A DNA stretch of 55,289 bases from Sandaracinus sp. (lineage in GTDB: Bacteria; Myxococcota_A; Polyangia; Polyangiales; Houyiibacteriaceae): positions 1 to 55,289 of the forward strand of contig PABA01000106.1 of the NCBI GenBank assembly GCA_002699025.1, written 5' to 3'. The notes below the pieces were generated by a model. The model ran no database searches and was not told where the DNA came from. It worked only from the letters and a program-made list of their open reading frames with translations. The translations under genes were made by a program, and so were the position numbers. Below are positions 500 to 55,289 of this stretch, piece after piece (the stretch's first letter is position 1; each line of letters starts with the position of its first letter).

Positions 500-2617
500 C
501 TAGGGGAAGAGCGCGTCGAGGGCGGCCAGGTCGTCTTCCGGCCCGGTGGACGGCGGCTGCGTCGGCAGGAGGAGCACGGCGCGGCCCGTGGCGACCCGGA
601 CGCGACCCATGCGCACCTCGCCGTGGGAGAGGCCCTTGCCGTGGAGGGTCTCGAGGGCGCTGCGGATCTGTTCGCGCGCCCGGTCGCGCTGCGCGTCCGT
701 GAGAGCGGCGCGCGTGAGCGGCTCGCCGGCCGGGTCCTCGAGGATCGCCCGCTCCGCTTCGGGCTCGAGGTCGAAGATCGCCTGCAGGAAGGGGCCGTCG
801 GCCTGCGCGTAGTGCTTGAGCCAGCTCGCGCGCTCGGCGTCGCAGGGCTCGATGCGCACCGCGCGCGCGAGGAGCGTGTCGTGGGCCCGGTACGCGCCGC
901 CCTCGAGGGGCTGCTCCATCGCGTAGCGGTCCGGGGCCGCCGGCACGGAGGAGGGGCGCGGCGCCGAAGAGGGGCGCGCGTCGGCGTCGGCCTCGGCCTC
1001 GCTCGGCTTCGCGCGTTGCTCCTCGACGAGGCGCTCGAGGGCGTTCTCGTCCGGGTCGGTCCAGTCGAGCTCGGCGAGGAGGCGCCGCACCTCGTCCACG
1101 CCCTGGGGCCGCTCCTCGAGGGGCTTGGCGAGGAGGCGCTCGAGGAGCGGGTCGAAGCGGGGGCCGAGGCGGGGGCGCCGCCGGGAGATCGGCTCGGCCG
1201 TCGCCTCGAGCTGCTGGGTCACGAAGTCCGGGCCGGGGAAGGGGAGGGCGCCGGTGAGGAGCTGGTAGAGGATGCAGCCGAAGGCGTAGAGGTCGGTGCC
1301 GGCCTCGGGGCGCTGGGAGCCGGTGATCTGCTCCGGGGCCATGTAGGCGAGGGTTCCGAGGAGGGCGCCGGTGAGGGTGGCGCCGAGATCCTGGAGGTGG
1401 GCGACGCCGAAGTCGCCGATCTTCACGTCGCCGGTGGCGCCGAAGAAGACGTTCGCCGGCTTGAGGTCGCGGTGGATGACGCCGCGGCGGTGCACGGCCT
1501 CGAGGCCCCGGAGGATGCTCGCGGCGACGTGCTGCACGACGGCGAGCGGGAGGGGGCCCTCGTGCTCCTCGAGGCGGTCGGCGAGCGTGCCGCCGGCCAT
1601 GTACTCCATGACGAGGAAGGGGCCGTCGGGGTTGAACTCGTGGACGTGGACGACGTTCGGGTGCTCGAGGCCGGCGGCGACCCGGGCCTCGCGGGCGAAG
1701 CGGGTGTAGGCGTCGCGGCCCGCGGCGCCCGTGCCGACGCTGAGCACCTTCACGGCGACCTCGCGGTCGTAGAAGCCGTCGTGGGCGAGGAGCACGCGGC
1801 CGGTGGCGCCGGCGCCGAGGGGGCGGACGACGCGGTAGCGGCCGGCGAGGAGCTGGGCGGCCTCTTCGCCGGCGGCGAGGCCGGCGAGGCCCTTTCGGTT
1901 GCCGAAGGTCTTCTCGAGGAAGTCCGGCACGCGGACCGGGAGCGCCGGGTCCTCCTCGCGGAGGCGGTCGAGGCAGGCGCCGGCGGCCTGGTCCATGCCG
2001 AGGGCGTCGAAGCAGGCCACGAGGAGCTCGAGGGCCGGGTGGCTGCGTTCCGGATCCTTCTCGGCGGTCTGGAGCGCCCGGGCGGCGTGGTCGAAGCGGC
2101 CGAAGTGGGCGAGGATGCGGCCGAGGCGAAGGGCGGCCTCGCCGTCGGTCGGGTCCTCCTTCACGCGGCGCTCGTAGAGCATGCCGGCCTCGCGGTAGCG
2201 GCCGGCGGACTCCTCGCAGCGGGCGGCCTCGAAGAGCTCGCCGGCGCGGGCGTAGAGCTGGGCGGCCTCCTGGACCTCGCCGGCGGCTTCGCGGAGGCGC
2301 GCGGCGTCGACGATGCGTCCCTTGCGCTCGGCGGCGGCGGCGGCCTCGAGGGCCTGGTCGGGGTGCTCGGGGAGGAGGCGCATGAGGCGGGCGAGGGCCT
2401 GGCGGTCCTCGCCGGCGAGGGCGTGGGCGTAGGCGAGGGCGTAGAGGTCGTTCTCCTCGGCGACGGCGATGGCGTTCGGCCAATCCCAGACGGCGGCGTA
2501 GAGCTCGGAGGCGCGGCGGGGCTCGCCGGCCTGGAGGCAGAGGTTCGCGGCCTCCGCGTAGCGGCCTGCTTTGCGGAGGGCGTCGACGCGGCCTTTCAGA
2601 TCGTCGTCGGGCTCCAT
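500..2617 (-). CDS. Ser/Thr protein kinase with N-terminal helical repeats and a degenerate C-terminal kinase-like domain
   Basis: This 705-residue cytoplasmic protein begins with about 245 residues of Ala/Glu/Arg-rich TPR-like helical repeats. A complete Hanks-type kinase domain follows at about 258-520: glycine loop LGAGATGRV, catalytic Lys290 in VAVKV, HRDLKPAN at 382-389, DFG at 402-404 and APE at 427-429. No membrane segment is present. After an acidic Ala/Pro-rich linker, residues 563-705 look like a second, decayed kinase N-lobe and catalytic loop: RYAMEQPLEGGAYRAHD, an internal LHGKGLSHGEVRMGR where HRDLKPxN is expected, and no DFG or C-lobe. The frame ends there. A small hairpin (458-474) lies 26 nt past the stop. 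Upstream is the dispersed repeat starting at 2667. The kinase call is firm. The pseudokinase reading is my inference from residue patterns. Confidence 0.93.
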   Translation of the reverse strand: MEPDDDLKGRVDALRKAGRYAEAANLCLQAGEPRRASELYAAVWDWPNAIAVAEENDLYALAYAHALAGEDRQALARLMRLLPEHPDQALEAAAAAERKGRIVDAARLREAAGEVQEAAQLYARAGELFEAARCEESAGRYREAGMLYERRVKEDPTDGEAALRLGRILAHFGRFDHAARALQTAEKDPERSHPALELLVACFDALGMDQAAGACLDRLREEDPALPVRVPDFLEKTFGNRKGLAGLAAGEEAAQLLAGRYRVVRPLGAGATGRVLLAHDGFYDREVAVKVLSVGTGAAGRDAYTRFAREARVAAGLEHPNVVHVHEFNPDGPFLVMEYMAGGTLADRLEEHEGPLPLAVVQHVAASILRGLEAVHRRGVIHRDLKPANVFFGATGDVKIGDFGVAHLQDLGATLTGALLGTLAYMAPEQITGSQRPEAGTDLYAFGCILYQLLTGALPFPGPDFVTQQLEATAEPISRRRPRLGPRFDPLLERLLAKPLEERPQGVDEVRRLLAELDWTDPDENALERLVEEQRAKPSEAEADADARPSSAPRPSSVPAAPDRYAMEQPLEGGAYRAHDTLLARAVRIEPCDAERASWLKHYAQADGPFLQAIFDLEPEAERAILEDPAGEPLTRAALTDAQRDRAREQIRSALETLHGKGLSHGEVRMGRVRVATGRAVLLLPTQPPSTGPEDDLAALDALFP

Positions 2618-2666: not shown

Positions 2667-3123
2667 ACCCGTGCCGAAGACCCGTGCCCGTGCCCATGCC
2701 CTTGCCCGTGCCCGTCGGTCTCCATGGTCGTCGGGTCTGCCGAGTGGTCTCGTGTCGAGCTGAGCACGTCGGGCACGGGGGGAGGGGACGGGCCCCGCGG
2801 GACCCCGCTCCGGCTCGCACCCGCCTTGCGGCGGATGCTCCGCCTGCGCTCCGAAGCTCGCCCAGGACGTCGGCTGAAGCCGCCGCCCTGGACGACTTCT
2901 ATGGTCCCGCGGGGCCCGTCCCCTCCCCCCTCCGTGGTCCTCGTGGTCGGCGCGGAGAGTGAGTGGCTTGGGGGCTCGCCGCCTCGTCGAAAGCCGAAGA
3001 GGCGACGAGCCCTGGCTCCTCCTGCCCGTGGTCCTCTCGACCCCGTCCGGCTTCGCCGTCCGCGGCCTTCGCGGGTCCATGGAGATCCCGATGCGGGGAG
3101 CGCGCGTCGCTTCGCGTCGCCCG
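2667..3123. repeat. Dispersed structured repeat, copy 1
   Basis: This non-coding block recurs in the same orientation at 54652-55289 with high identity over most of its length. In order it holds CCCGTG/CCCATG hexamers (2681-2716), a conserved 60-nt segment, a perfect 28-bp inverted repeat (2777-2804 with 2903-2930) enclosing a 98-nt loop, a GAGTGAGTGGCTTGGGGGC segment, and a tail with a 7-bp stem (2983-2989 with 3003-3009). It starts about 50 bp upstream of the kinase start codon. Long open frames crossing it are GC-bias shadows. Copy 2 stands in the same relation to ppk1. Confidence 0.85.
2777..2930. other. Conserved hairpin core of dispersed repeat copy 1
   Basis: The 28-nt arms are exact reverse complements. 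Inside the loop, 2817-2825 pairs with 2830-2838 (eight of nine pairs, TTGC loop), and 2872-2881 forms a small GGCT-GA-AGCC hairpin. Copy 2 has hairpins at the same offsets with different sequences. That suggests selection on structure, in RNA or as extruded DNA. Confidence 0.7.
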
Positions 3124-3394
3124 CCCCCGCGACCGCCTCCGCCTCGCCGTCGACTTCGCGACGACGAGGCTGCGCAGCGCGTCCCGCGTCGGGGCGCGTT
3201 CGAGGTCGGCTCCGCCTCCCTCGCCCGCTCTCCCGGCGTGATGAGCGAGGGCGCGTCCGACCTCCGTCGGGCGTGGCGTCGCGTGGGTCCCCACGTCCCG
3301 ACTCGGGGCGCGGGACGAGGTCGGCTGACGCCTCCCCCGCCCGCTCTTCCGTCACTCGGGAGTTTCGCGTCGTCATGCGCTGCGCGCCGACGAC
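3124..3394. other. Non-coding GC-rich spacer with an imperfect internal duplication
   Basis: I see no gene here. Two similar segments, about 3185-3235 and 3298-3350, share GAGGTCGGCT followed by a CGCCTCC/CGCCCGCTCT tract, which suggests an old local duplication. Confidence 0.5.
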
Positions 3395-3556
3395 AGCTCG
3401 CGCCGCCGCTCCAGCTCGCGCGGTCGCTCCAGCTCGCGCCGCCGCTCCAGCTCGCGCGGTCGCTCCAGCTCGCGCCGCCGCTCCAGCTCGCGCCGCCGCT
3501 CCAGCTCGCGCCGCCGCTCCAGCTCGCGCGGTCGCTCCAGCTCGCGCCGCCGCTCC
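3395..3556. repeat. 18-bp tandem repeat array, nine units
   Basis: Nine consecutive 18-nt units start with AGCTCGCGC and alternate between a CGCCGCTCC and a GGTCGCTCC ending. A tenth, decayed unit follows to 3574. The array lies downstream of the amylase gene, whose stop is at 3736 on the minus strand. Confidence 0.95.
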
Positions 3557-3584
3557 CGCTCACGCCACCGGTCCAGCAGCTCGC

Positions 3585-3684
3585 GCTCGAGCTTCCGCGC
3601 TCACGCCCGAGCTTCAGCGCTCACGCTCGAGCTTCCGCGCTCGCGCTCGAGCTTCCGCGCTCACGCTCGAGCTTCCGCCCTCCA
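3585..3684. repeat. 20-bp tandem repeat array, five units
   Basis: Five 20-nt units begin with GCTCGAGCTTC (one has GCCCGAGCTTC) and have only one to three changes each. The array abuts the 18-bp array but has a different unit and period. Confidence 0.92.
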
Positions 3685-3735: not shown

Positions 3736-5466
3736 CTACTCGACGACCCACACGAACGCGCTCTGCGGCGGCATGTCCACCACCAGCTCGCCGCCCTCCA
3801 CCCGCGCCTCGCCGCCCTCCCAGGCTCCGAGCGCTTCGCGGAAGCGCGCCCCCTCGAGGGCCGCACGGTCGCTCTCGCTGAGCCCGGGGTTCGTCGCGAC
3901 CGGCATGGGGAGGCCGCTCACCGCCTCCTCGCCGCCGTGGATCGCGACGACCACGTGGCTCTCGCCGACGCTGCGGAAGAAGACCCAGACGTCGGCGCCG
4001 CCGTTCGGGCGCCAGAGCTCGGCGTAGCCGCCGCGGCGGAGCGCCGGGAGCGCGCGGCGGAGGGCGATCAGCTCGCGCGTGAGCGCGAAGGTCTCGCCGG
4101 GGTCGCCGACGACGCCCTCCCTCCCGGCGCCGCCGCGCGCCTCGGGGTCGAAGGCCCACGCGGGCATGTCGCGGCGGTTCTCGGGCCACTCGCCGGTGAA
4201 GCCGAGCTCGTCGCCGTAGTAGAGCTGCGGGATGCCGGGGACGGTGAAGAGGGTCGCGAGCGCCAGGCGGTAGCCGGCGACGCGCTCGGCCTCGGGGCGG
4301 CCCTCGCTGGCCTGGAGGAAGCGGGGCACGTCGTGGTTGTCGAGGAGCTGGCTCTTCCGGCGCGCGGCCGCGATGCCGAAGCGGTCGACGTACTCCTGCA
4401 CGCGGCTCGCCACGCCGTTCAACGAGCCGCCGCGCGCGAAGGCGTCGAGCATCGCGCCGTGGAGCGGGAAGTCGAAGAGGCCGTCGAAGCCGGCCTCGAC
4501 GTAGGGCACGAAGGGATCGTAGCCGCTCCCGTCGAGGAGCTCGCCGACGAGCCAGAGATCGCGCTCGGCGCGCACGGTCGGGATCCAGCGCTCGGCGAAG
4601 TAGCTCGCGGGGACGTGCTTCACGGTGTCCATGCGGACGCCGTCGAAGGGGAAGCGGCGGACGAAGCGCGCGCTGTAGGCGTCGAGGTAGGCGGCGACCT
4701 CCTCGCGCTCCTGGGCCAGGTCGGGCAGGCCGGCGAGGGAGCAGCGGCGGGGGTCGTCCTGGCAGGAGGTGCGGCCGTCGTGGAACCAGCCGGGGCGCGT
4801 GCGCGTCAGGCGGGCGCCGTAGCCGACGTGGTTGACGACGAGGTCGGCGACGACGCGGATGCCGCGGCCGTGGAAGTCCTCGAGGAGCGCGTCGAGGGCC
4901 GCCGCGCCGCCGAGCCGCGGCTCGATGGCGCCGTCGTCCGGGTCGTCGAGATCGGCCCAGTAGCCGTGGTAGCCGCAGCCCTCGCCGATGCGGCCCACCT
5001 GCCGCTGCACGGGCGTGATCCAGACGGCGTCGACGCCGAGCTCCTCGAGGTACCCGGCGCGCGCCCGGAGGCCGGCGAAGTCGCCGCCGTGGTAGCGGCG
5101 CGGGTGCGCGGGGTCGAAGCACTCGTCCTCGCCGTCGTTCGCAGGATCGCCGTTCGCGAAGCGGTCGGTGAGCACGAAGTAGAGGGCGGCCGTGTCCTCC
5201 CAGCCGGGGGTGGAGGGGGGCGTCGTCGCGTCCTCGCCGGCGTCCTCGTCGGGCTCGGGCGGGGGATCGCCCCCGTCCTCGGCCGGGGCGCTCGGGGGCA
5301 CCGGGGGCAGCTCGAAGCCGGCCTCGTCGCCCGTGCAGCCGATGACGATCGCGAGGGCGAGCAGGCGGAGGCGGCGGGAGACGGCGAGGCGCCAGGCGGA
5401 TCGCGGCGACCGGACGTGAGGACGCCCGTCGGCTCTGCCGTACGGCTCTCGCTCGCGACACCCCAT
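3736..5466 (-). CDS. Secreted lipoprotein alpha-amylase (GH13)
   Basis: This 576-residue glycoside hydrolase family 13 enzyme should cleave alpha-1,4 glucan bonds outside the cytoplasm. All four GH13 signature regions are present: DLVVNH, GVRMDTVKH (nucleophile Asp), VGELLDG (acid/base Glu) and LLDNHD. A Glu/Asp/Pro-rich linker precedes the barrel, and a small beta-sandwich follows it, as in many amylases. The N-terminus carries LLALAIVIGC, a lipobox that predicts lipid anchoring at the Cys. The ATG at 5466 leaves an unusually long basic stretch of about 30 residues before it, but no closer ATG or GTG exists in frame. The gene stands alone, with repeat arrays downstream. Starch degradation fits the known habits of Sandaracinus-type bacteria. 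The exact substrate is not fixed by the sequence. Confidence 0.93.
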   Translation of the reverse strand: MGCREREPYGRADGRPHVRSPRSAWRLAVSRRLRLLALAIVIGCTGDEAGFELPPVPPSAPAEDGGDPPPEPDEDAGEDATTPPSTPGWEDTAALYFVLTDRFANGDPANDGEDECFDPAHPRRYHGGDFAGLRARAGYLEELGVDAVWITPVQRQVGRIGEGCGYHGYWADLDDPDDGAIEPRLGGAAALDALLEDFHGRGIRVVADLVVNHVGYGARLTRTRPGWFHDGRTSCQDDPRRCSLAGLPDLAQEREEVAAYLDAYSARFVRRFPFDGVRMDTVKHVPASYFAERWIPTVRAERDLWLVGELLDGSGYDPFVPYVEAGFDGLFDFPLHGAMLDAFARGGSLNGVASRVQEYVDRFGIAAARRKSQLLDNHDVPRFLQASEGRPEAERVAGYRLALATLFTVPGIPQLYYGDELGFTGEWPENRRDMPAWAFDPEARGGAGREGVVGDPGETFALTRELIALRRALPALRRGGYAELWRPNGGADVWVFFRSVGESHVVVAIHGGEEAVSGLPMPVATNPGLSESDRAALEGARFREALGAWEGGEARVEGGELVVDMPPQSAFVWVVE

Positions 5467-8658: not shown

Positions 8659-11600
8659 AGGGGCTCGGCGCGGTCCTGCTCGTCGCGCTCGCGCTCCTCG
8701 CGGCGGCGCCGGCGACGGCCCGGGCGATCTGCGGCGATGGCGTGCTCGAGGATGGCGAGGGCTGCGACGACGGGGGGCGGGAAGCGGGCGACGGCTGCGA
8801 CGCGGACTGCGCCGTCGAGCTGGGCTTCGCCTGCGACGAGGGCGTGCGCCTCGGGCGCATCACGGCGGAGGACTACCCGGGGAGCAGCCCACCGGCGAGC
8901 TGGGACGTGGCCGCGGACGGGCTGAGCGCCGTGCAGACGGTGAACGGGAACGCGAGCGTCGGGCTCTTCGGCGCGGACGCGATGGCCCGGACCTGGGTCT
9001 TCGACGTGACCGTGGAGACGACGGACGACGACGACTGGTTCGGCTTCGTGCTCGGCTTCGCGCCCGGCGACACGACGAACGACGCGGCGGACTTCCTGCT
9101 CCTCGACTGGAAGCAGGCGACCCAAGCCGGCTGGTCGGCGGGGCTCGTGCTCAGCCGGGTGCGGGGCGTGCCGGATCAGTCGACGGGTGCGCCGGGGACG
9201 GACCTCTGGAACCACAACGGCGCCGTGAGCGTGATCGCGCGGGCGGACGGGCTCGGCGACGTGGGCTGGGTCGACCTCCGCACCTACCGCTTCGAGATCG
9301 CCTACACGCCCTCGCGGCTCGTCGTGCGCGTCGATGGCGCGGTCGAGATCGATCTCGCGCCCCCGAGCGGCGAGAGCTGGCCCGCGGGGGAGATCGGCTT
9401 CTACGGCTTCTCGCAGGCGGACGTGCGCTACGCGATCGATCCGCCCCCGCCGACGCCCTGCGGGCCGGACGGGGACGGGGACGGGATCTTCGACGCGCGC
9501 GACGCCGACGACGACGGCGACGGGGTGCCGGATCGGCTCGAGGTGATGGGCTTCGCCGGGGACCCGGACGCGGACGGGGACGACGACGGCGTGCCCGACT
9601 GGGAGGACCCGGACGTGGTCGCCTGCGCGGACGCGGGCGGGCGCTGCGCGACGCTCCCGGCCGCGATCGATCCGGACGGCGACGGGCTCCCCAGTCACCG
9701 GGATCGGGACGCGGACGGAGACGGCGTGCCGGATGGGCTCGAGGCGGGCCACGGGGCGCCGCTCGGGGCGGACGGCGCGCTGGCGGACGGGAGCGATGGC
9801 GACGGGGACGGGCTCGCGGACGCGGTGGACCGGGCGCCGGGCGATCCGGGCGACGCGGGCGCGGCCTTCGTGCTCGCGGACGCGGACGGGGCCGGCGCGC
9901 CCGACCTCTTCGCCCTCGACGCAGACGGCGACGGGCTCGGCGAGGCCATCGAGGCGCACGACGACGACGGCGACGGGGTGGCCGAGCGGGGGCCGGTCGG
10001 CGCCGACCACGACGGCGACGGCCTGGACGACGCCTTCGACGCGGACTGCGCGGGGGCGCCGGCGCCCTGCGCGGCGGACGGCGTGCCCGTGCGCGCGCCC
10101 TACGACGCGGCCCGCGACGCGGACGGGGACGGCGAGCCCGACTGGCGCCAGCGCTGCGGCGACGGCTACGTGACCGGCGCCGAGGGCTGCGACGACGGCA
10201 ACGCGATCGACGGCGACGCCTGCACGAACGCTTGCCTGCTCGGCGCGGGCGAGGCGTGCGGAACGGACGAGGCCTGCGCGACCGGGATCTGCGACGACGG
10301 CGCGGGCCGCTGCGAGCCCTGCGAGGACGGCGGGCCGGGGGTCGATCCGGGCTGCGACGACGCGCGCCCGGCCTGCGTCGCGGAGGCGGCGGGGAACGTC
10401 TGCCGGCCCTGCGTGGACGACGCGGCCGACGCCGCCATCGACACGGGCTGCGACCTCGTCGCGCCGAGCTGCGGGCCGGGCTTCGTCTGCGCCGCCTGCC
10501 ACGACACGGCGGCGAGCGGGGGGGACGATGGCTGCGGCGCGGGCGCCCCGATCTGCGACCCGAGCGGGCCCGCCTGCGTGGGCTGCGTGGAGGACGCGGA
10601 CTGCGCGGAGGGGGTCTGCGCGGCGGGCGCCTGCCTCGCCTGCGTGGACGACGAAGCCGGCGCGGCGCCCGACCGGGGCTGTGAGGACGCGGCGCCCCTC
10701 TGCGTGGGCGCGGGGGCCGCGGCGGCCTGCGTGGCCTGCGTGGACGACGGGCCCGGGCCGGATCTCGGCTGCGCGGGCGCGACGGCGATCTGCGACGAGG
10801 CGCCGCCGGCGCCGACCTGCGCGCCCTGCGTCGACAGCGATCCGGGCGCGGGCGTCGACCAGGGCTGCGTGGCCGACGCGCCCTTCTGCGACGCCTCCGA
10901 CGGGCGGCGCTGCGTGGCCTGCCTGAGCGACGCGGACTGCGGCGACGGGGAGGTCTGCGACGGGGCCGGCGCCTGCACCCGCGGCTGCCGGGAGGACGCG
11001 GACTGCCCGCCCGGGGCGCCGCGCTGCGATCGGGCGGCGAGCGCCTGCGTCCCCTGCCTGGACGACGGGGACTGCCCGGGGCGGACGCGCTGCGACGCGA
11101 TGCAGCGCTGCGTCTTCCCGGACCTCGACGGGGACGGCGTGCCCGACGACGTGGACCTGGACGACGACGGCGACGGCGTGCCGGACGTCGACGAGGAGGG
11201 GGTCGACCGCTCGGGCGACGGCGACGGCGACGGCGTGCCGGCCTTCCTGGACCCGGACGAGAGCGGCTGCGAGGACGCGGACGGGGACGGGACCTGCGAG
11301 GCGCCCGTCGACGACGCGGACGGGGACGGCGAGCCGGCGCATCGGGATCTCGACGCGGACGGGGACGGCGTGGCGGACCTGGTCGAGGCCGGCGGCGAGG
11401 ACGCGGACGGGGACGGGCGCGTGGACGAGGGGCGCGACGCGGACGGGGACGGGCTCGCGGACGCCTACGCGGAGGCGCCGCTGCCGCAGCCGGACACGGA
11501 CGGCGACGGCCGGCCCGATCGGGCGGACCCGGACGACGACGGGGACGGGGTCGAGACGCGCTTCGAGCCGGGCGATACGGATGGGGACGGGCAGCCCGAT

Positions 11601-11849
11601 CGGCTGGACGCGGACGACGACGGGGACGGGCGGCCCACGGCGGAGGAGGGGGCCGACCCGGACGGCGACGGCGACCCGCTCGACGCGGTGGACGGAGACG
11701 GGGACGGGGTGCCGGACTACCTCGATCCGGATCCGGCGGCGCCGCTCGGCTACGCCGGGGGCGCGTGCGCGGCGGGCGGCGGCGGCGGCGTGCCCTGGCT
11801 CGCGCTGGCGCTCGGGCTGGTGGCGCTCGCTCGGCGGCGTCGGCGCTGA
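8655..11849 (+). CDS. Surface protein: thrombospondin C-terminal-like lectin domain, TSP3 repeats, Cys-rich stalk, MYXO-CTERM tail
   Basis: This is a 1064-residue exported protein. A signal peptide (1-24) is followed by a myxobacterial Cys-rich repeat (CGDGVLEDGEGCDDG). Residues about 70-262 closely resemble the thrombospondin C-terminal L-lectin-like domain: DDDDWFGFVLGF, LLLDWKQATQAGW, VGWVDLRTYRF, RLVVRVDG, EIGFYGFSQADVRY. Next come DxDxDG calcium-binding type 3 repeats (about 270-500), a Cys-rich region of CxxC/DDxxC modules (about 500-820), more type 3 repeats (about 820-1030), and a MYXO-CTERM tail (GGACAAG, hydrophobic helix, RRRRR). MYXO-CTERM proteins are processed and displayed on the outer surface. 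Translation is coupled to the barrel gene upstream. The architecture recalls TraA (lectin head, Cys-rich stalk, MYXO-CTERM). The role is inferred as adhesion or recognition. Confidence 0.9.
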   Translation: MKGLGAVLLVALALLAAAPATARAICGDGVLEDGEGCDDGGREAGDGCDADCAVELGFACDEGVRLGRITAEDYPGSSPPASWDVAADGLSAVQTVNGNASVGLFGADAMARTWVFDVTVETTDDDDWFGFVLGFAPGDTTNDAADFLLLDWKQATQAGWSAGLVLSRVRGVPDQSTGAPGTDLWNHNGAVSVIARADGLGDVGWVDLRTYRFEIAYTPSRLVVRVDGAVEIDLAPPSGESWPAGEIGFYGFSQADVRYAIDPPPPTPCGPDGDGDGIFDARDADDDGDGVPDRLEVMGFAGDPDADGDDDGVPDWEDPDVVACADAGGRCATLPAAIDPDGDGLPSHRDRDADGDGVPDGLEAGHGAPLGADGALADGSDGDGDGLADAVDRAPGDPGDAGAAFVLADADGAGAPDLFALDADGDGLGEAIEAHDDDGDGVAERGPVGADHDGDGLDDAFDADCAGAPAPCAADGVPVRAPYDAARDADGDGEPDWRQRCGDGYVTGAEGCDDGNAIDGDACTNACLLGAGEACGTDEACATGICDDGAGRCEPCEDGGPGVDPGCDDARPACVAEAAGNVCRPCVDDAADAAIDTGCDLVAPSCGPGFVCAACHDTAASGGDDGCGAGAPICDPSGPACVGCVEDADCAEGVCAAGACLACVDDEAGAAPDRGCEDAAPLCVGAGAAAACVACVDDGPGPDLGCAGATAICDEAPPAPTCAPCVDSDPGAGVDQGCVADAPFCDASDGRRCVACLSDADCGDGEVCDGAGACTRGCREDADCPPGAPRCDRAASACVPCLDDGDCPGRTRCDAMQRCVFPDLDGDGVPDDVDLDDDGDGVPDVDEEGVDRSGDGDGDGVPAFLDPDESGCEDADGDGTCEAPVDDADGDGEPAHRDLDADGDGVADLVEAGGEDADGDGRVDEGRDADGDGLADAYAEAPLPQPDTDGDGRPDRADPDDDGDGVETRFEPGDTDGDGQPDRLDADDDGDGRPTAEEGADPDGDGDPLDAVDGDGDGVPDYLDPDPAAPLGYAGGACAAGGGGGVPWLALALGLVALARRRRR

Positions 11850-11940
11850 GAGCGGCGGAGAGGCGCCGCGGGTCGCGCTGGCGTTCGGGCTGCTGGCGCT
11901 CGCTCTGCGGCGTCGGCGCTCGGAGCGGCGGAGAGGCGCC
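11801..11940. repeat. 67-bp tandem duplication of the MYXO-CTERM helix coding sequence
   Basis: Positions 11801-11867, which encode the terminal hydrophobic helix and Arg cluster and include the stop, recur at 11874-11940 with five mismatches in 67 and a 73-nt period. In the second copy the stop codon of the first is altered, and the sequence still encodes LAFGLLALALRRRRS in one frame. Confidence 0.9.
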
Positions 11941-11958
11941 CGTGGGTCGCGCGCGGGG

Positions 11959-12033
11959 GCTCGGGCTGCGGGTGCTCGGCCTGCGGATGCTCGGCCTGCG
12001 GATGCTCGGGCTGTGGATGCTCGGGCTGTGGGC
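11959..12033. repeat. 15-bp tandem repeat array, five units
   Basis: Five units of GCTCGG(G/C)CTG(C/T)GG plus two variable bases run directly after the duplicated MYXO-CTERM segment. I see no gene in 11850-12319. Confidence 0.92.
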
Positions 12034-12319
12034 GCTCGCTCGACGAGCTGAGCGCCGAGCGTGGGACGCGAGCTCGCCTCGGCCGCTCGTGTTCGAGGGG
12101 CTCCATCTTGGCTCGGACCGGCCTCCGAGGACGGGCTGAAGCCCGCGTTCGACGCGTGGGCGCCTCCCCACGGGGCGTGGGCTCCTCCCCACGGCGTGCC
12201 GTTTTTGGACGGTGAAACCCGGGGAGAACGCATGGCACGAAATTCCCATTCCGGCCCGCCCGGTGATGGTGCAGGATTGCAGTCGTACCACCCCGCTTCG
12301 GGGGGCTGGAGGTGTGGAG
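12034..12319. other. Upstream region of the OmpA-family gene with two small tandem hairpins
   Basis: No coding sequence is seen. Two near-identical 16-nt hairpins (12156-12171 and 12177-12192, GTGGG/CCCAC stems) lie 21 nt apart. A GGAGG ribosome site sits at about 12308-12312, just before the ATG at 12320. A CCCCG-CTT-CGGGG hairpin lies immediately before that site. No convincing -35/-10 pair was found. Confidence 0.45.
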
Positions 12320-14173
<1,854 letters not shown>

Positions 14174-14190
14174 GTCGGGAGACGTACGAC

Positions 14191-17100
14191 ATGAGCTACC
14201 CCAAGCATCTTCGGTGGGTCGCGGCGGCCTCGATCCTCGCCGCCCTCGGGCTCGGAGGCGCGACGGCGCGCGCGCAGGACGCGGACGCGGACGGCGTCCT
14301 CGACCCGCGCGACGAGTGCCCCGGCACGCCCATGGGCACCAGCGTCGACATCACGGGCTGCGACGACTTCTGCGAGGTCGTCGTCTCCGGCGACGACGTC
14401 TTCTTGCGGACGCGCCTCGTGGAGATGGGCCTCCGCGCCGGCGCGTCCTTCGGCTCGGATGGGGGCGCCCCGGCTGGCTGGAGCCCGCGCCCGGATCCGC
14501 GGAACTTCGGCCAGGACCCGCGTAGCCTCGGCTTCGTGGCCGATCCCGACCGCACGGGCTGGGCCACGGACGCCTTCGACGGCGACTACTTCCTCCCCGG
14601 CCAGCCGGAGGAGAGCTGGGGCCTCGAGTTCGGCGGCAGCGTCTACATCAACTCGACGAACAGCGAGGACCGGAACGACATCCCGGGCGCCTGGGTGCCC
14701 GGCTCGGCCCAATGCGTGCCGCGTGATCTCTGCGGGCGTCGAGGCGGCGCGCGGGCGACCTGGGAGGGCGCCGTCGCCGGCGTCGAGGTCGAGAAGAGCT
14801 ACGAGATCCTCCACGAGGGGCTCTTCATCCTCGTCGAGACGACGCTGACCAACGCCAGCGGCGCCGACATCAGCGACCTCTACTACATGCGGAGCGTCGA
14901 CCCGGACAACAACGTCTCCATCAACGGCGGCGACTTCTCGACGACCAACGAGGTGCTCAGCCAGCCCGACATGATGAGCGACGACGCGGTCGTCTCGGCG
15001 ACCCAGCCGGCGGCCGGCTCGGCCACGGAGAGCTTCATCGCCCTCGGCTCGCGCAACTCGAGCGCGCGCGTGACCTACGGCGGCTTCGCCAACCGCGACC
15101 CGAGCGCCGTCTTCGAGGGCACGGGCGGGCTCTCCTCCTCGGGCTCGAACACGGCGGACGAGGCGATCTCCCTCGCCTTCCGCTTCGATCTGGCCGACGG
15201 GGAGAGCGTCCGCTTCGGCTTCGTCTACACGCTCGACGTCTCGGCGCTGGACAAGGCCCTCGAGTGCTCGGCGCTCGACTCGGACGGTGACGGCATCCTC
15301 GATCGGGACGATCCGGACGACGACAACGACGGCATCCCGGACGTGGACGAGCTCGGTGGCGTCGACGTGTCCGGCGACAGCGACCTCGACAACGTGCCCG
15401 ACTGGGCCGACGCGGACAGCCCGGGCTTCGTGGACGCGGACGGCAACGGCGTCGACGACCGCTACGACCTCGACGGCGACGGGGTGCCGAACCACCTCGA
15501 CCTCGACCACGACGGCGACGGCTTCTCGGATCTGGCGGAGAGCGGCAACGGCGCGCTCGACACGGACGGCGACGGCCAGCCGGACGACCTGACCGACACG
15601 GACCTCGACGGGATGATCGACGCCTTCGACGTGGCGCCGGCGGACCCGCTCGATGGGGGCTCGACGAGCATGCCCGGCGACGCGGACATGGACGGGCTCG
15701 AGGACTACCGCGACCGGGACTCGGACGCGGACGGCATCACGGACGCGCGCGAGGGCGCCTACGAGGACGTCGACGGGGATGGCCTCGTGGACGGCTTCGT
15801 GGACGGGAACGGCGATGGCCTGGACGACCGCGGCGCTTCCGAGCGCGTGGACACGAACACGGACGGCACGCCGGACTACCTGGACTCGGACACGGACGGC
15901 GACGGTGTGAACGACGCCGTGGAGGGCAGCGACGGTGACGGGGACGGCGTGGCCGACCTCGTGGCCAGCGGCGCCGACACGGACGGGGACGGCCTGGACG
16001 ACGCCTTCGACCCGGACTGCACGGCCATGCTCTGCATGGGCGTCGCGGGCGTCGCCCCGGCGCTGCCGGACACGGACTCGAACGGTGTGCCCAACTGGCG
16101 GGACCCGGACGACGACGGGGACGGGCTCCCGACGCTCCAGGAGCGCACGGAGCCGGACGTCGACATGGACGGCCCCGCCTACCTGGACGACGACGACGAC
16201 GACGACGGCGTGCCGACGAGCGCCGAGTGCACGACCGGCAACGTCCCGACCTGCGAGGACAGCGACGGGAACGGCACGGCCGACTACGTGCAGACGGACT
16301 CGGACGGCGACGGGCTCCTCGACGGCGTCGAGTGCCCGACCCAGCCCTGCCGGAACACGGACGCGCCGGCGGACGACCTGGAGGACTTCCGCGACGACGA
16401 CGACGACGGCGACGGGATCCCGACCGCCGACGAGGTCGCCGACCAGGGCACCTACGGGACGCCCGACGCCGACGGCGTGGACGCCTGGCTGGACGACGAC
16501 TCGGACGGCGACGGGGCGAGCGACGCGGCCGAGGCCGGGCTCGACCTCGACGGCGACATGATCCCCGACTACCTCGACCCGGACTCGGCGCCGACGGATA
16601 CGGACGGCGACGGTGTGCCCGACACGGTGGAGTGCGGCGGCGATCCGGTCGACGGCTGCCCGGACACGGACGGCGACGGGGACGACGACTTCGAGGATCC
16701 GGACGACGACGGGGACGGCGTGCCGACCGAGGACGAGTGCAGCACGCCGCTCGCCTGCGAGGACACGGACGAGGACGGCCTGCCCGACTTCCGCGACGTG
16801 GACGACGACGGGGACGGCCTGCCCACCGAGGAGGAGCCCGCGACGGATGTCGACGGGGACATGCGCCCGGACTGGCGCGACGCGGACGACGACGGAGACG
16901 GAATCCCGACGCTCGTCGAGGCCTGGGACGACGACGCGGACGGCGTGGGCGCGACGCCGAGCGGCGCGGACACGGACGGGGACGGGCTGGACGACACCTT
17001 CGACCCGGACTGCGCGGCCGCGGCGGATTGCGGCGGCGTCATCGGCCAGAGCGCGCCGGAGCCCGACACGGACGAGGACGGCTTCGCGGACCACGTGGAC

Positions 17101-18456
17101 GTGGACGCGGACGGCGACGGGGTGCTCGACGCGATCGAGTGCGGCGACGAGGAGAGCTGCGCGAACACCGAGATGATGGGCGCGCCGGACTACCTCGACG
17201 ACGACGCGGATGGCGACGGCGTGCCCGACGCGACGGAGGCGCACGACGCCGACGGGGACGGCGCCGCGGACGTGGTGGCCGCGATGGTCGACACGGACGG
17301 GGACGGGCTGGACGACGCCTTCGACCCGGACTGCGTGGACGCCGCCTGCGGCGGGGTCGTGGGCGTGGAGGCGCCGACGCCGGACCGGGACGAGGACGAC
17401 GCGCCGGACTTCCAGGACGCGGACGACGACGGGGACGCGATCGACACGGCCCAGGAGGTCGCGGACGCGGCCGAGTTCGGGAACCCGGACGACGACGGCG
17501 TGCCCGCCTACCTCGACGACGACTCGGACGGGGACGGCGCGAGCGACCTGCTCGAGACCGGCATGCTCGATCTCGACGACGACGGCGTGCCCGACTACCT
17601 CGACCCGGACTCGCGGCCGACGGACTCGGACGGGGACGGGCTGGCCGATCCCTTCGAGTGCGAGGACCTCTCGATGCCCGAGAGCTGCCGCGACACGGAC
17701 GGGGACGGTGACCCGGACTTCATGGACGCGGACGACGACGGCGACGGCGTGCCGACGGAGGACGAGCGCCCGATGGGCGACCGGGACACGGACGGGGACG
17801 GCGAGCCGGACCACCTGGACGCGGACGACGACGGCGACGGGCTGTCGACGGCGGACGAGCTCGGGCCGGGAGGCGCGGAGCTTCCGCGGGACACGGACGG
17901 GGACGGCGACGCGGACTACCTGGACGCGGACGACGACGGGGACGGCGTGCCGACGGCGGACGAGCTGGACGGCGGGGCGACCCGCGACACGGACGGGGAC
18001 GCGACGCCTGACCACCTCGACGTCGACGACGACGGAGATGGGCTGGCGACGGCGGACGAGCTCGGCGCCGGAGACACGGACGGCGACGGGAACCCGGACT
18101 ACCTGGACCCGGACGACGACGGCGATGGGCTGAGCACGGCGGATGAGATCGCCGATGGCGAGGCGCATGGGGACGACGTGGACGGGGACGGGGACCCGAA
18201 CTGGCGGGACACGGACTCGGACGGGGACGGCCTCGACGACGCCGACGAGGGGCGCGACGCCGACGTGGACGAGGACGGCGTGCCCGCCTACCTGGACCCG
18301 GACGAGGGCGGCGAGGAGCCGATGATGCCGACGCCGACCGAGGGCGGCTTCTCGGGCGGCGCGCTCTGCGCGACCAGCCCGGCGGGGCAGGGCAGCTCGG
18401 CGCCCTGGCTCGCGCTCCTCGGGGCCGCGGTCCTCCTGCGACGCCGCCGGCGTTGA
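14191..18456 (+). CDS. Giant acidic TSP3-repeat surface protein with MYXO-CTERM tail
   Basis: A 1421-residue exported protein. The signal peptide runs to ARAQD. An N-terminal domain of about 340 residues follows, of a kind seen in secreted myxobacterial proteins (VFLRTRLVEMGLRAGASFGSD, then SLGFVADPDRTGW and DYFLPGQPEESW), which I cannot name. About 1000 residues of DxDxDGxxD type 3 calcium-binding repeats run from about 360 to 1373. Within them a longer unit, DTDGDGLDDAFDPDC...C-GGV-G, recurs three times. The MYXO-CTERM tail (GGALCATS, helix, RRRRR) ends it. The gene begins 17 nt after the OmpA-family gene with its own GGGAG ribosome site and is probably in the same operon. It is very acidic and should be a calcium-stiffened stalk or mesh on the cell surface. 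Confidence 0.9.
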   Translation: MSYPKHLRWVAAASILAALGLGGATARAQDADADGVLDPRDECPGTPMGTSVDITGCDDFCEVVVSGDDVFLRTRLVEMGLRAGASFGSDGGAPAGWSPRPDPRNFGQDPRSLGFVADPDRTGWATDAFDGDYFLPGQPEESWGLEFGGSVYINSTNSEDRNDIPGAWVPGSAQCVPRDLCGRRGGARATWEGAVAGVEVEKSYEILHEGLFILVETTLTNASGADISDLYYMRSVDPDNNVSINGGDFSTTNEVLSQPDMMSDDAVVSATQPAAGSATESFIALGSRNSSARVTYGGFANRDPSAVFEGTGGLSSSGSNTADEAISLAFRFDLADGESVRFGFVYTLDVSALDKALECSALDSDGDGILDRDDPDDDNDGIPDVDELGGVDVSGDSDLDNVPDWADADSPGFVDADGNGVDDRYDLDGDGVPNHLDLDHDGDGFSDLAESGNGALDTDGDGQPDDLTDTDLDGMIDAFDVAPADPLDGGSTSMPGDADMDGLEDYRDRDSDADGITDAREGAYEDVDGDGLVDGFVDGNGDGLDDRGASERVDTNTDGTPDYLDSDTDGDGVNDAVEGSDGDGDGVADLVASGADTDGDGLDDAFDPDCTAMLCMGVAGVAPALPDTDSNGVPNWRDPDDDGDGLPTLQERTEPDVDMDGPAYLDDDDDDDGVPTSAECTTGNVPTCEDSDGNGTADYVQTDSDGDGLLDGVECPTQPCRNTDAPADDLEDFRDDDDDGDGIPTADEVADQGTYGTPDADGVDAWLDDDSDGDGASDAAEAGLDLDGDMIPDYLDPDSAPTDTDGDGVPDTVECGGDPVDGCPDTDGDGDDDFEDPDDDGDGVPTEDECSTPLACEDTDEDGLPDFRDVDDDGDGLPTEEEPATDVDGDMRPDWRDADDDGDGIPTLVEAWDDDADGVGATPSGADTDGDGLDDTFDPDCAAAADCGGVIGQSAPEPDTDEDGFADHVDVDADGDGVLDAIECGDEESCANTEMMGAPDYLDDDADGDGVPDATEAHDADGDGAADVVAAMVDTDGDGLDDAFDPDCVDAACGGVVGVEAPTPDRDEDDAPDFQDADDDGDAIDTAQEVADAAEFGNPDDDGVPAYLDDDSDGDGASDLLETGMLDLDDDGVPDYLDPDSRPTDSDGDGLADPFECEDLSMPESCRDTDGDGDPDFMDADDDGDGVPTEDERPMGDRDTDGDGEPDHLDADDDGDGLSTADELGPGGAELPRDTDGDGDADYLDADDDGDGVPTADELDGGATRDTDGDATPDHLDVDDDGDGLATADELGAGDTDGDGNPDYLDPDDDGDGLSTADEIADGEAHGDDVDGDGDPNWRDTDSDGDGLDDADEGRDADVDEDGVPAYLDPDEGGEEPMMPTPTEGGFSGGALCATSPAGQGSSAPWLALLGAAVLLRRRRR

Positions 18457-18462
18457 GCTCGG

Positions 18463-18496
18463 GCCGCGCCTCTCGCCTCCGGGCGAGAGGCGCGGC
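18463..18496 (+). terminator. Strong terminator-like hairpin after the TSP3 giant gene
   Basis: A perfect 15-bp GC stem (18463-18477 with 18482-18496) with a TCCG loop lies 6 nt after the stop. It is followed by AGGCTGTCCTCTT rather than a clean T-run, so termination is likely but not certain. Confidence 0.65.
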
Positions 18497-18527
18497 AGGC
18501 TGTCCTCTTCCGCTCGTGCCGCCCGAG

Positions 18528-18816
18528 CTGTCGCTCGGGCTCGCGCTGTCACTCGGGCTCGCGCTGTCGCTCGGGCCCCGCGCCGCCCCTCGGCTTCGCG
18601 CTGTCGCTCGTGCTGGAGCTGTCGCTCGTGCTGGAGCTGTCGCTCGTGCTGGAGCTGTCGCTCGCGCTGGTGCTGTCGCTCGTGCTCGGGCTGCCGCTCT
18701 TGCTGGTGCTGTCGCTCGCGCTGGAGCTGTCGCTCGTGCTGGAGCTGTCGCTCGTGCTGGAGCTGTCGCTCGTGCTGGAGCTGTCGCTCGTGCTGGAGCT
18801 GTCGCTCGCGCTCCGC
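18528..18816. repeat. 18-bp tandem repeat array, about fifteen units
   Basis: Units resembling CTGTCGCTCGTGCTGGAG run from 18601 to 18816 (twelve units), with three more diverged units from 18528 to 18581 and one decayed unit between. In one frame they read as Leu repeats and in the other strand as Ser/Thr/Asp repeats. Neither has a plausible start or a domain, so I treat the array as non-coding. It fills most of the 446-bp gap at 18457-18902. Confidence 0.9.
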
Positions 18817-18902
18817 TCTCGCCCTTGCCCGAGGAGGGCCGCGCTCGCTCCCCCGAGCCCCCCGCCTTTGCGACCTCTCCGCGGCCGTGCTTCCTTGCGC
18901 TC

Positions 18903-19322
18903 GTGACGCTCAGCGCGCTCCCGGGGCTCGGCGAGGAGATCGAGCTCGTCATCGAGGTCTCGCGCTTCTCCTTCGTGAAGCGCCGCCCGGACGGGCGCGT
19001 CCACTTCGTCTCTCCCGTGCCGACGCTCTTCAACTACGGGAGCGTGCCGAACACCCGCGCGGCCGACGGGGATCCGCTCGACGTCCTCCTCCTCGGTCCC
19101 CGGCTCCGGCGCGGCGCCCGCCGACGCGCGCACGTCCTCGGCGTCGTCGACTTCCTCGACGGCGGCGCGCCCGATCCGAAGATCGTCGCCGGCGCCCCGG
19201 GGGCGCGCCTCGGGACCTGGGAGCGCGCCCAGGTGACGACCTTTTTCCAGGTCTACGCCCGCGCCAAGCGCGTCCTCGATCCCGCCGGCGGCGGCGCCCT
19301 GTACCGCGGCTGGCTCGCCTGA
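18903..19322 (+). CDS. Short inorganic pyrophosphatase-like protein
   Basis: A 139-residue soluble protein similar to family I inorganic pyrophosphatases, which hydrolyse PPi to phosphate. The metal-binding core is visible: FNYGSVP with Tyr45, ADGDPLDV with Asp55/57/60, then FLDGG (Asp86) and PDPKIV (Asp91, Lys93). The protein is shorter than the usual 170-180 residues. Positions matching Glu31 and Arg43 of the E. coli enzyme appear to be Arg and a non-Arg residue, so activity may be altered. A GTG start is chosen because no ATG precedes the conserved region. No clear ribosome site is seen. It sits between two MYXO-CTERM genes and behind a minisatellite, so it may not belong to their operon. 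Confidence 0.75.
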   Translation: MTLSALPGLGEEIELVIEVSRFSFVKRRPDGRVHFVSPVPTLFNYGSVPNTRAADGDPLDVLLLGPRLRRGARRRAHVLGVVDFLDGGAPDPKIVAGAPGARLGTWERAQVTTFFQVYARAKRVLDPAGGGALYRGWLA

Positions 19323-19399
19323 GCTCGGCGCGGCCGGCCCGCCCTGGGCGCCGCGTGACCTTTCCGCGCGAGCGTGGCTCGCGCTACCTTCCCCCTCCG

Positions 19400-52310: not shown

Positions 52311-54602
52311 TCAGACGGGCTTCTCTTCGTCCGGCTTCTCGACGGGGGCGACGACCGTGGTGGCCGTCTTCGTGCCCTTCGTCGGGCGGTGGCGCACCGG
52401 GCGCACGATGAAGGGGCGCTCGGCGCGGACACGGGCCTGGGCCTCGGCCTCGGCGGCGCTCGCCAGGTCGAGGAAGCGGAGCTGGCTGCGCACCTGCTCG
52501 TCGAGGTTCTCCGGCGTCGGCACCTTCTCGTAGTGCCCGTCGGCGCGGAGCTCGCGGGCCTTCACGTTGTCCTCGAGGGCGATGCCGAGGACCTCGTGGA
52601 TGACGCGCTTGCGGAGGCCGTCGTCCTCGATGGGGAACATCACCTCGACGCGGCGGTGGAAGTTCCGCGGCATCCAGTCGGCGCTGGCGCCGAAGACGAG
52701 CTGCCGGCCGCCGGCCTCGAAGTAGTAGATGCGGTGGTGCTCGAGGAAGCGGTCGACGATGGAGCGGACGCGGATGTTCTCGCTGATGCCCGGCAGCCCG
52801 GCCCGGAGGCAGCAGATGCCGCGGACGATGAGGTCGATCTGCACGCCCGCCTGGGAGGCCCGGTAGAGCGCCTGGATGACGTCCGGGTCCTGGAGCGAGT
52901 TCATCTTGGCGATGATGCGCGCGGGCTTGCCGGCGCGGGCGTAGGCGGCCTCGCGCTCGATCATGCCGAGCGTGGTCTCGTGGAGGCCGAGGGGCGCGGC
53001 GATGAGCTTGCGCCACTCGCGGGGCGGCGTGCAGCTCGTGAGGAGGTTGAAGAGGGCGGTGGCGTCGTGGCCGAAGTCCGGGCGCGCCGTGAAGAGGCTG
53101 AGGTCCGTGTAGAGCTTGGCCGTCTTCGGGTTGTAGTTGCCCGTGCCGAGGTGGACGTAGCGGCGGAGGCGCCCGTCGCCCTCGCGGCGGACGACCAGGC
53201 TGACCTTGCAGTGGGTCTTGAGGCCGACGAGGCCGTAGACCACGTGGACGCCCGACTCCTCGAGGCGGCGCGCCCAGTGGATGTTGTTCTCCTCGTCGAA
53301 GCGGGCCTTGATCTCGACGAGCGCGGCGACCTGCTTGCCGTTCTCGGCGGCGCGGGTGAGGGCCTTGACGATCGGGCTGTCGCCACTGGTGCGGTAGAGG
53401 GTCTGCTTGATCGCGAGGACGTCGGGGTCGACGGCGGCGCGCTCGAGCATGGCGACGACCGGGTCGAAGCTCTCGTAGGGGTGGTGGAGGAGGACGTCGC
53501 GCTCGCGGATGACCTCGAAGACGTCCTCCTCGCCGAGGAAGGCCGGCGGCTCGGCGGGGGTGAAGGGGACGTCGTGGAGGTCGGCGCGGTGCCGGAGGCC
53601 CTGGGCGAGGTCACCGAGGTCCGGCATGGAGAGGGGGGCGTCGACCTGGAAGACGAACTGGGAGTCGACGCGGAGCGCCTCCTGGAGGACGGCGACGGCG
53701 CCGGGGGCGCAGCTCGAGCTGACCTCGAGGGCGACGGCGTTGCCGCGATCGCGGCGGCGGACCTCCTCGCGGATGACCTCGAGGAGATCCTCGGCCTCCT
53801 CCTCGTCGATGGAGAGGTCGTGGTTCCGGATGACGCGGAAGGGCCAGGCGCCGCGCTGGTGGAAGCCGCGGAAGAGCTCGCCGGCGTTCTCGGCGATGAC
53901 GTCGTCGAGGAGGACGTAGTTGGCGACGGCGCCGGCGTCGTCCTTGACGGGGATGAGGCGCGGGAGGACGGCCGGGACCTGGACGACGGCGAAGGCGGGC
54001 TCGCCCTCCTCCTCGCCGGCGAGCATGACGACCAGATGGAGCCGCTTGTTGGGGACGTGCGGGAAGGGGTGGCCCGGGTCCAGGGCGAGGGGGGTCAGGA
54101 TCGGATAGACCTGCTCCTGGAAGTAGCGGCGGAGGCGCTTCTGCTCCTGGGCGTCGAGCTCGCGCGGCTTGCGGAGGACGACGCCCTCGTCCTCGAGGGC
54201 CGGGAGGAGCTGGCCGAGGAAGGTCTCGGACATCTCGTCGACCATGCGCTCGACGCGCTTGGCGATGGCGGAGAGCTGCTCGGCGGGCGTCATGCCGTCG
54301 GCCGGGGTGTCGGAGACGCCCTCGCTGCGCTGTTCGAGGAGGCCGGCGACGCGGACCATCTGGAACTCGTCCAGGTTGGACTGGACGATGGTGAGGAACT
54401 TGAGGCGCTCGAGGAGGGGGACCGAAGGGTCGCGGGCCTCGTCGAGGACGCGCTGGTTGAACTCGAGCCAGGAGAGCTCGCGGTTGATGAAGAGCTCGGG
54501 GCGGTCGAGGTCGACGGGGAGGGCGCCGGCGGCCGGGGCCTGCTGCGTGTCGGCGGTCGTCTCGTCGTCCGTGGTCCGCTCTTCGGGCGTGGCGCCGTCC
54601 AT
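52311..54602 (-). CDS. ppk1: Polyphosphate kinase 1
   Basis: A 763-residue PPK1, which reversibly makes polyphosphate from ATP. The N-terminal domain has FINRELSWLEFNQRVLDEAR. The catalytic region has HHPYESFDPVV, the autophosphorylated His in LKTHCKVSLVVRR, VHLGTGNYNPKTAKLYTDLS, GICCLRAG, and the second essential His in FLEHHRIYYFE. A 25-residue acidic, disordered N-terminus precedes the fold. The extended C-terminal tail (RPVRHRPTKGTKTATTVVAP) is not part of the core. On this strand TTGACG lies 32 nt upstream of the ATG, without a good -10 box. Copy 2 of the dispersed repeat begins 50 bp upstream. Convergent with the hybrid kinase. The 245-bp gap between them holds no gene that I can see. 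Confidence 0.96.
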   Translation of the reverse strand: MDGATPEERTTDDETTADTQQAPAAGALPVDLDRPELFINRELSWLEFNQRVLDEARDPSVPLLERLKFLTIVQSNLDEFQMVRVAGLLEQRSEGVSDTPADGMTPAEQLSAIAKRVERMVDEMSETFLGQLLPALEDEGVVLRKPRELDAQEQKRLRRYFQEQVYPILTPLALDPGHPFPHVPNKRLHLVVMLAGEEEGEPAFAVVQVPAVLPRLIPVKDDAGAVANYVLLDDVIAENAGELFRGFHQRGAWPFRVIRNHDLSIDEEEAEDLLEVIREEVRRRDRGNAVALEVSSSCAPGAVAVLQEALRVDSQFVFQVDAPLSMPDLGDLAQGLRHRADLHDVPFTPAEPPAFLGEEDVFEVIRERDVLLHHPYESFDPVVAMLERAAVDPDVLAIKQTLYRTSGDSPIVKALTRAAENGKQVAALVEIKARFDEENNIHWARRLEESGVHVVYGLVGLKTHCKVSLVVRREGDGRLRRYVHLGTGNYNPKTAKLYTDLSLFTARPDFGHDATALFNLLTSCTPPREWRKLIAAPLGLHETTLGMIEREAAYARAGKPARIIAKMNSLQDPDVIQALYRASQAGVQIDLIVRGICCLRAGLPGISENIRVRSIVDRFLEHHRIYYFEAGGRQLVFGASADWMPRNFHRRVEVMFPIEDDGLRKRVIHEVLGIALEDNVKARELRADGHYEKVPTPENLDEQVRSQLRFLDLASAAEAEAQARVRAERPFIVRPVRHRPTKGTKTATTVVAPVEKPDEEKPV

Positions 54603-54651: not shown

Positions 54652-55289
54652 ACCCGTGCCGAAGACCCGTGCCCGTGCCGAAGACCCGTGCCCCTGCCCT
54701 TGCCCGTGCCCCTGCTCGCCGGTCTCCAGGGGCGTCGGGTCTGCCGAGTGGTCTGCGTGTCGAGCTGAGTACGTCGGGCACGGGGGGAGGGGACGGGCCC
54801 CGCGGGACCCCGCTCCGGCTCACCGTCAGCGTGCGCTGACGGTTCCGCCTCCGCTCCGAAGCTCGCCCAGGACGTCGGCTTCGCCGCCGCCCTGGACGAC
54901 TTCTATGGTCCCGCGGGGCCCGTCCCCTCCCCCCTCCGTGGTCCAAGTGGCCGGCGCGGAGAGTGAGTGGCTTGGGGGCGATGGAGGTGCCGTGAACCGA
55001 CGCCACGCGACGATACGGGCCCGTCGAAGCCGCTGACGGCGTTGCGCTCCCTCGACGTAGCGCTGCTACTCCTTCGGTCGTGCGCCTTGCCAGCGACTCC
55101 GACGACCTCCGTCTCGTTCGCGCGTCGTCGGCCCCCGGCACCTCGCCGCCTCGTCGATAGCCGAAGAGACGACGAGCCCTGGCCCCTCCTCCCCGTGATC
55201 CTCTCGGCCCCGTCCGGCTTCGCCGTCCGCGGCCTTCGCGTGTCCGAGGAGATCCCGATGCGGGGAGCGCGCGCCGCTTCGCGTCGCCC
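54652..55289. repeat. Dispersed structured repeat, copy 2 (continues past the window end)
   Basis: Same orientation and order of parts as copy 1 (2667-3123): CCCGTG-type hexamers, the conserved 60-nt segment, the perfect 28-bp inverted repeat (54782-54809 with 54907-54934), the GAGTGAGTGGC segment and the terminal stem (55150-55156 with 55170-55176). An extra segment of about 165 nt (about 54979-55143) is present that copy 1 lacks. The inner hairpin (54822-54830 with 54835-54843, GTGC loop) lies at the same offset as in copy 1 but with unrelated sequence. The match still holds at the last base of the window. Confidence 0.85.

Follow-up and report, generated by a model that had tools for sequence, protein, structure and literature searches.

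Dispersed behind unrelated genes of one Sandaracinus sp. genome is a lineage-specific element whose minus strand is predicted to be transcribed as a folded 3′ RNA, a reading to which we give an even chance. This explanation is based on the copy number of the element, compensatory changes among its copies, a minus-strand asymmetry in wobble pairing, and the position behind genes; selection for a single-stranded fold of the minus strand is the best reading of the variation. The window analyzed here, a stretch of 55,289 nucleotides, corresponds to contig C117 of a draft genome (9.24 Mb, 238 contigs, 96% complete), which is the only genome of its genus, and it holds two copies of the element.

Extent and distribution of the element

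The 154-bp palindrome singled out by the first-pass annotation (2777-2930 and 54782-54934) is the core within a larger intergenic repeat of ~0.7 kb. In copy 1, similarity spans about 2660 to about 3700, well past the coordinates given in that annotation, and takes up the whole gap between the two flanking genes (Table 1). On the minus strand, GCTC-type tandem repeats come first, followed by the ~106-bp tandem units, hairpin A and then hairpin B, an optional insert of 163 bp, the core, and finally a GTGCCC tract. A DNA search of the draft assembly placed the core, alone or with its flanks, at >30 sites in the genome, with about a dozen complete cores; the true copy number is uncertain, since many contigs end inside the element. 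Decayed, shorter mosaics of it occur elsewhere in the genome. The element is built of multicopy, extragenic, mosaic, palindromic modules and is BIME-like in the broad sense. A protein-coding repeat was ruled out, since the copies often differ by 1-nt indels with no reading frame kept.

Several further repeats were seen in the same surroundings. Truncated second copies of the left part of the element lie directly behind a first copy at two loci, L149 (C233) and L160 (C146), forming tandem mosaics, and at L114:1-625 (C86) there are about five repeats of the ~106-bp unit, in which the GGC-N3/4-GCC loops are hypervariable. GTGCCC/GGGCAC hexamer tracts occur in the window at 2668-2713, 33579-33611, and 54653-54715 and at L117, L125, L136, L140, and other loci; they are intergenic here and in several relatives of the family, whether or not the element is present, and in one relative (G032) some are arranged as inverted pairs about 100 to 150 bp apart. 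Long tandem tracts in GCTCNN phase (6/18 bp) are found in intergenic gene flanks, both in the window (3394-3682 and 18525-18822) and at L141, L145, and L152.

Table 1. Features of the two copies and their neighbors, in window positions (a dot marks features listed with no strand)
Feature	Position	Strand	Evidence or remark
Core, copy 1: outer stem, branch, two inner hairpins	2774..2939	-	alignment A1, pair counts, model R1 (170 bits)
Outer stem left arm, copy 1 (exact 28-bp inverted repeat)	2777..2804	.	pair 26/149 flips C-G/G-C among copies
Outer stem right arm, copy 1	2903..2930	.	alignment, pair counts
Helix 5, copy 1, hypervariable 9-bp hairpin, minus-strand loop GCAA	2817..2838	-	
Helix 2 (second inner hairpin), conserved stem; minus-strand loop CTTCA-type vs CGA-type	2853..2899	-	
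Hairpin B, copy 1, adjoins core; covarying (C-G/U-A, G-C/C-G)	2972..3012	-	
Hairpin A, stem nearly invariant, minus-strand G.U; 1-nt indels in loop	3141..3170	-	
~106-bp tandem units, about 2 here, about five in C86	3186..3390	-	without strand preference
Tandem repeats of 18 and 20 bp in GCTCNN hexamer phase, from element to end of amylase-like gene	3394..3682	.	
GTGCCC hexamer tract, opposite side of element	2668..2713	.	
Core, copy 2	54779..54943	-	model R1 (165.8 bits)
Outer stem left arm, copy 2	54782..54809	.	
Outer stem right arm, copy 2	54907..54934	.	
Helix 5, copy 2, other arms (ACCGTCAGC/GCTGACGGT), minus-strand loop GCAC	54822..54843	-	
Optional insert, ~163 bp, separating core from hairpin B	54980..55141	.	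also C214, C109; end in C157
Hairpin B, copy 2	55138..55178	-	
Gene upstream of copy 1 (PF00128, alpha-amylase domain), 3′ end toward element	3736..5466	-	
Gene downstream of copy 1 (protein kinase domain)	500..2617	-	
Gene downstream of copy 2 (polyphosphate kinase)	52311..54602	-	

Among 33 genomes of the family (32 besides its own), model R1 matched only the genome of origin; a DNA search of the same 33 genomes returned mostly matches to the GTGCCC tract. DNA matches in a sample of 96 genomes from the order were only short and weak, and the element was not found in plasmid, phage, and viral contig collections. Comparison with Rfam gave no family at the gathering score or at an E value of ≤1, and no tRNA or tmRNA was found. 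When 84,980 genomes were searched for exact matches to an arm 18-mer, 15 loci were returned; their similarity is limited to the self-complementary arm, and they have no flanks in common. Literature searches for intergenic repeats of myxobacteria or of Sandaracinus turned up no relevant work.

Paired changes and strand asymmetry

As the first-pass annotation had reported, both window copies keep the 28-bp inverted repeat exactly (100% identity), and in both an inner hairpin begins precisely 12 nt past the left arm, with arms that differ between the copies: GCACCCGCC-TTGC-GGCGGATGC in copy 1 and ACCGTCAGC-GTGC-GCTGACGGT in copy 2. The 9-bp stem described for copy 1 is present but is not perfect on the plus strand, where 2820/2835 is C:A; on the minus strand this pair is a U.G wobble. 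A second small hairpin, said to replace its pairs between copies (GGCT versus GGC), does not do so: the stem CGGC/GCCG is common to both, the loop alone differs (TGAA versus TTC on the plus strand), and the stem columns of alignment A1 (58-60 with 67-69) are invariant. The core of copy 1 has a predicted folding energy of -140.6 kcal/mol, compared to -88.3 ± 4.4 kcal/mol in dinucleotide shuffles (z = -12).

From the two window copies, it had been proposed that pair replacement at constant geometry reflects a selected structure, and that genomic copies be collected and examined for covariation. That proposal gains support from the many more copies in A1, an alignment of 22 copies of the core with 63 pairs and 1,031 cells, and the covariation is significant. 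Standard pairs make up 97.8% of the cells, 10 pairs are altered on both sides, and none of 500 shuffles matched the observed pairing, the count of double-changed pairs, or the covariation score. Helix 5, the variable inner hairpin, exists in six arm haplotypes among 21 copies with 100% pairing and zero broken pairs, and six of its nine pairs are altered on both sides; its variants can be joined in a minimum spanning tree by 8 double changes and 2 single ones. Pair 26/149 of the outer stem is G-C in 8 copies, C-G in 6, and G.U in 1. Hairpin B, adjoining the core, covaries independently (C-G/U-A at 22/42 and G-C/C-G at 29/35).

Under a tree-preserving null, a simulation written for this analysis, six pairs had E values of <0.05, five of them in helix 5 and the sixth being 26/149; 18 pairs outside the structure scored equally high under this null, the top ones inside the helix 5 hairpin. 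Covariation is significant beyond phylogeny, with the caveat that helix 5 variants are inherited as haplotype blocks and so represent few independent events (at least 8 double changes). RNAalifold applied to the whole right part of the element yielded little, owing to incomplete alignment rows.

Nucleotide diversity (π) is distributed unevenly over the core: it reaches 0.27 in the helix 5 arms, close to the 0.30 to 0.39 of loops, and is 0.04 to 0.06 in the outer stem, helix 2, and the junction, so that unpaired junction bases are conserved while helix 5 drifts. This pattern fits a peripheral stem that is free in sequence but obliged to pair, set inside a sequence-constrained core.

The element shows a strand-specific tolerance of G.U pairs. 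Among the non-Watson-Crick cells of the core read on the minus strand, 59 are G.U and 9 are A.C, the latter confined to a helix that shifts register in one subtype; hairpin B has no A.C cells on this strand. Nearly every non-Watson-Crick pair is of the type that is G.U on the minus strand and C:A on the plus strand. A strand-neutral stem finder run on all copies counted 89 G.U versus 35 A.C pairs, and control chunks of the window were balanced; in copy 1, the A.C cases fall in the tandem region. Folding energies agree in direction: in each of the 15 near-complete copies it is the minus strand that folds better, by a mean of 18 kcal/mol, and shuffles of copy 1 give a strand difference of 4.9 ± 3.9 kcal/mol. 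Mutation bias in the form of strand-biased deamination was considered but is not supported as the source of the asymmetry, because minus-strand C>T and G>A rates are alike (27 columns/2,239 C cells versus 36 columns/2,633 G cells in the right region); unpaired core columns likewise have no excess of C>T. Since nearly all wobbles are G.U on the minus strand and no matching mutation bias exists, selection appears to act on a single-stranded minus-strand molecule. In the same reading direction, 19 of 21 helix 5 hairpins carry GNNA loops, a share that is only suggestive, the copies being related.

Genomic context and competing explanations

In 16 of 18 cases, the right-hand gene has its 3′ end facing the element (P = 0.0007 against a simple null of one half, with genes from a simple codon-usage gene caller), and the orientation of the left-hand gene is split 14 to 15. 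With the 3′ ends of right-hand genes pointing at the element, the strand that folds is sense with respect to the upstream gene. Most right-hand genes are supported by Pfam and have unrelated functions; the idea of a regulon was dropped, as Pfam revealed no function common to the neighbors. The core lies ~0.6 to 1.2 kb behind the upstream stop codon, a large distance for a terminator or stability element, and this counts against our best explanation. Between 2600 and 3760, no intrinsic terminator (a G+C-rich stem followed by a U run) was found, and a promoter search that covers high-GC bacteria poorly found no sigma-70-like promoter. Elsewhere in the window (9465-20872), several large open reading frames are internally repetitive, and thrombospondin type 3 and OmpA domains occur in some of them; one of the window's frames, 14191-18456, has no Pfam match.

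The selected minus-strand molecule is most likely RNA. Single-stranded DNA (ssDNA) is the less likely form, given that an element lying in sense orientation behind genes could be carried on their transcripts and that RNA accepts G.U as a genuine base pair. The minus strand would most likely be transcribed as part of a read-through 3′ untranslated region or an intercistronic RNA, which is predicted to fold into a fixed architecture, with hairpins A and B followed by the 28-bp outer stem closing a branch composed of the conserved hairpin and the hypervariable tetraloop hairpin. Such a domain could act in cis on the upstream message in a BIME-like manner, protecting its 3′ end, or insulate it from the next gene, and may have spread as a nonautonomous repeat; alternatively, it might function as a selfish repeat. 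More tentatively, the element may represent an undescribed class: a large, branched, strand-specific RNA domain that, within a single lineage, has spread to positions 3′ of dozens of genes unrelated to one another and is predicted to act in cis on their messages, its hypervariable hairpin renewing its sequence and keeping its pairing.

The main rival explanation, which we consider unlikely, is that the arms are matched to each other by template switching or gene conversion: point mutations in one arm would be carried over to its partner as the DNA replicates, pairs would change jointly without selection, and RNA would have no role. Template switching can create and maintain paired arms and is documented to give compensatory and multibase paired changes as well as inverted loops (PMC8794818), so that the first-pass annotation, in calling pair replacement the mark of selection, was borne out by the covariation but put the case too strongly. 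The helix 5 changes do arrive as blocks, and the second inner hairpin has a loop that resembles a near inversion. However, this process predicts no preference between G.U and A.C, and the minus strand has almost only G.U without a mutation bias; the G.U pairs 107/122 and 48/79 persist uncorrected, and the junction is conserved in its unpaired bases despite the drift of helix 5. The same wobble asymmetry bears on the other half of the original proposal, a conserved RNA or cruciform: it favors RNA, or ssDNA of one strand, and disfavors the cruciform. A DNA cruciform or a protein-binding palindrome serving as an architectural site would be in keeping with the intergenic position and with a very strong G+C-rich 28-bp inverted repeat containing G runs, but a symmetric double-stranded site predicts no strand-specific wobbles, and we hold this to be very improbable.

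Somewhat less probable than template switching, but ahead of the cruciform, is mobile DNA of the REPIN or MITE type, with the 28-bp arms as terminal repeats and a minus-strand ssDNA intermediate bound by a transposase. REPINs are dispersed extragenic hairpins with compensatory changes for which folding as ssDNA or mRNA has been proposed (PMC3116915), and folding of one strand is compatible with ssDNA, which tolerates G.T. Against this, a search for the Y1 transposase of RAYTs (Y1_Tnp, PF01797) gave no match in the 96% complete genome and succeeded in five control genomes; similarity continues past both arms, which are thus not the ends; and neither a target duplication nor a clean boundary was seen. 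Four reverse transcriptase matches are present (L199 to L202, on C10, C162, C202, and C115), but their contigs carry no core copy found by R1.

Relation to known repeats and structured RNAs

Dispersed bacterial palindromes have mostly been treated as DNA. Here, a family of copies within one genome varies enough to decide the strand, and the variation indicates that one strand folds. Should transcripts confirm this, the family would provide a natural set of >30 variants with which to test the effects of structured 3′ flanks on mRNA. It would also be well suited to telling selection and template switching apart as origins of paired changes.

Several known systems share part of this description. 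Like REP and BIME sequences, the element has many extragenic palindromic copies and is a mosaic with deletions and tandem modules; REP units measure about 20 to 60 bp (PMC3116915), whereas here a 166-nt branched core sits in ~0.7 kb, with a strand preference and no RAYT found. Roles reported for BIMEs, in work cited in PMC2267715, include mRNA stabilization and transcription attenuation. ERIC and other stem-loop repeats are likewise intergenic, limited to a species, and predicted to fold as RNA (PMC2267715), but the present element is longer and multidomain. With the large structured noncoding RNAs of Rfam it shares covarying helices, a branch, and a GNNA tetraloop (19 of 21 copies); it differs from them in matching no Rfam family and in having dozens of copies behind genes. 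REPINs also have inverted pairs that give a long hairpin and compensatory changes among the copies of one genome (PMC3116915), but here there is no Y1 transposase, and conserved sequence runs beyond the arms on both sides, so the inverted pair is not the whole replicating unit. We favor the view that the element is similar to REPIN/REP sequences but is not a member of that group.
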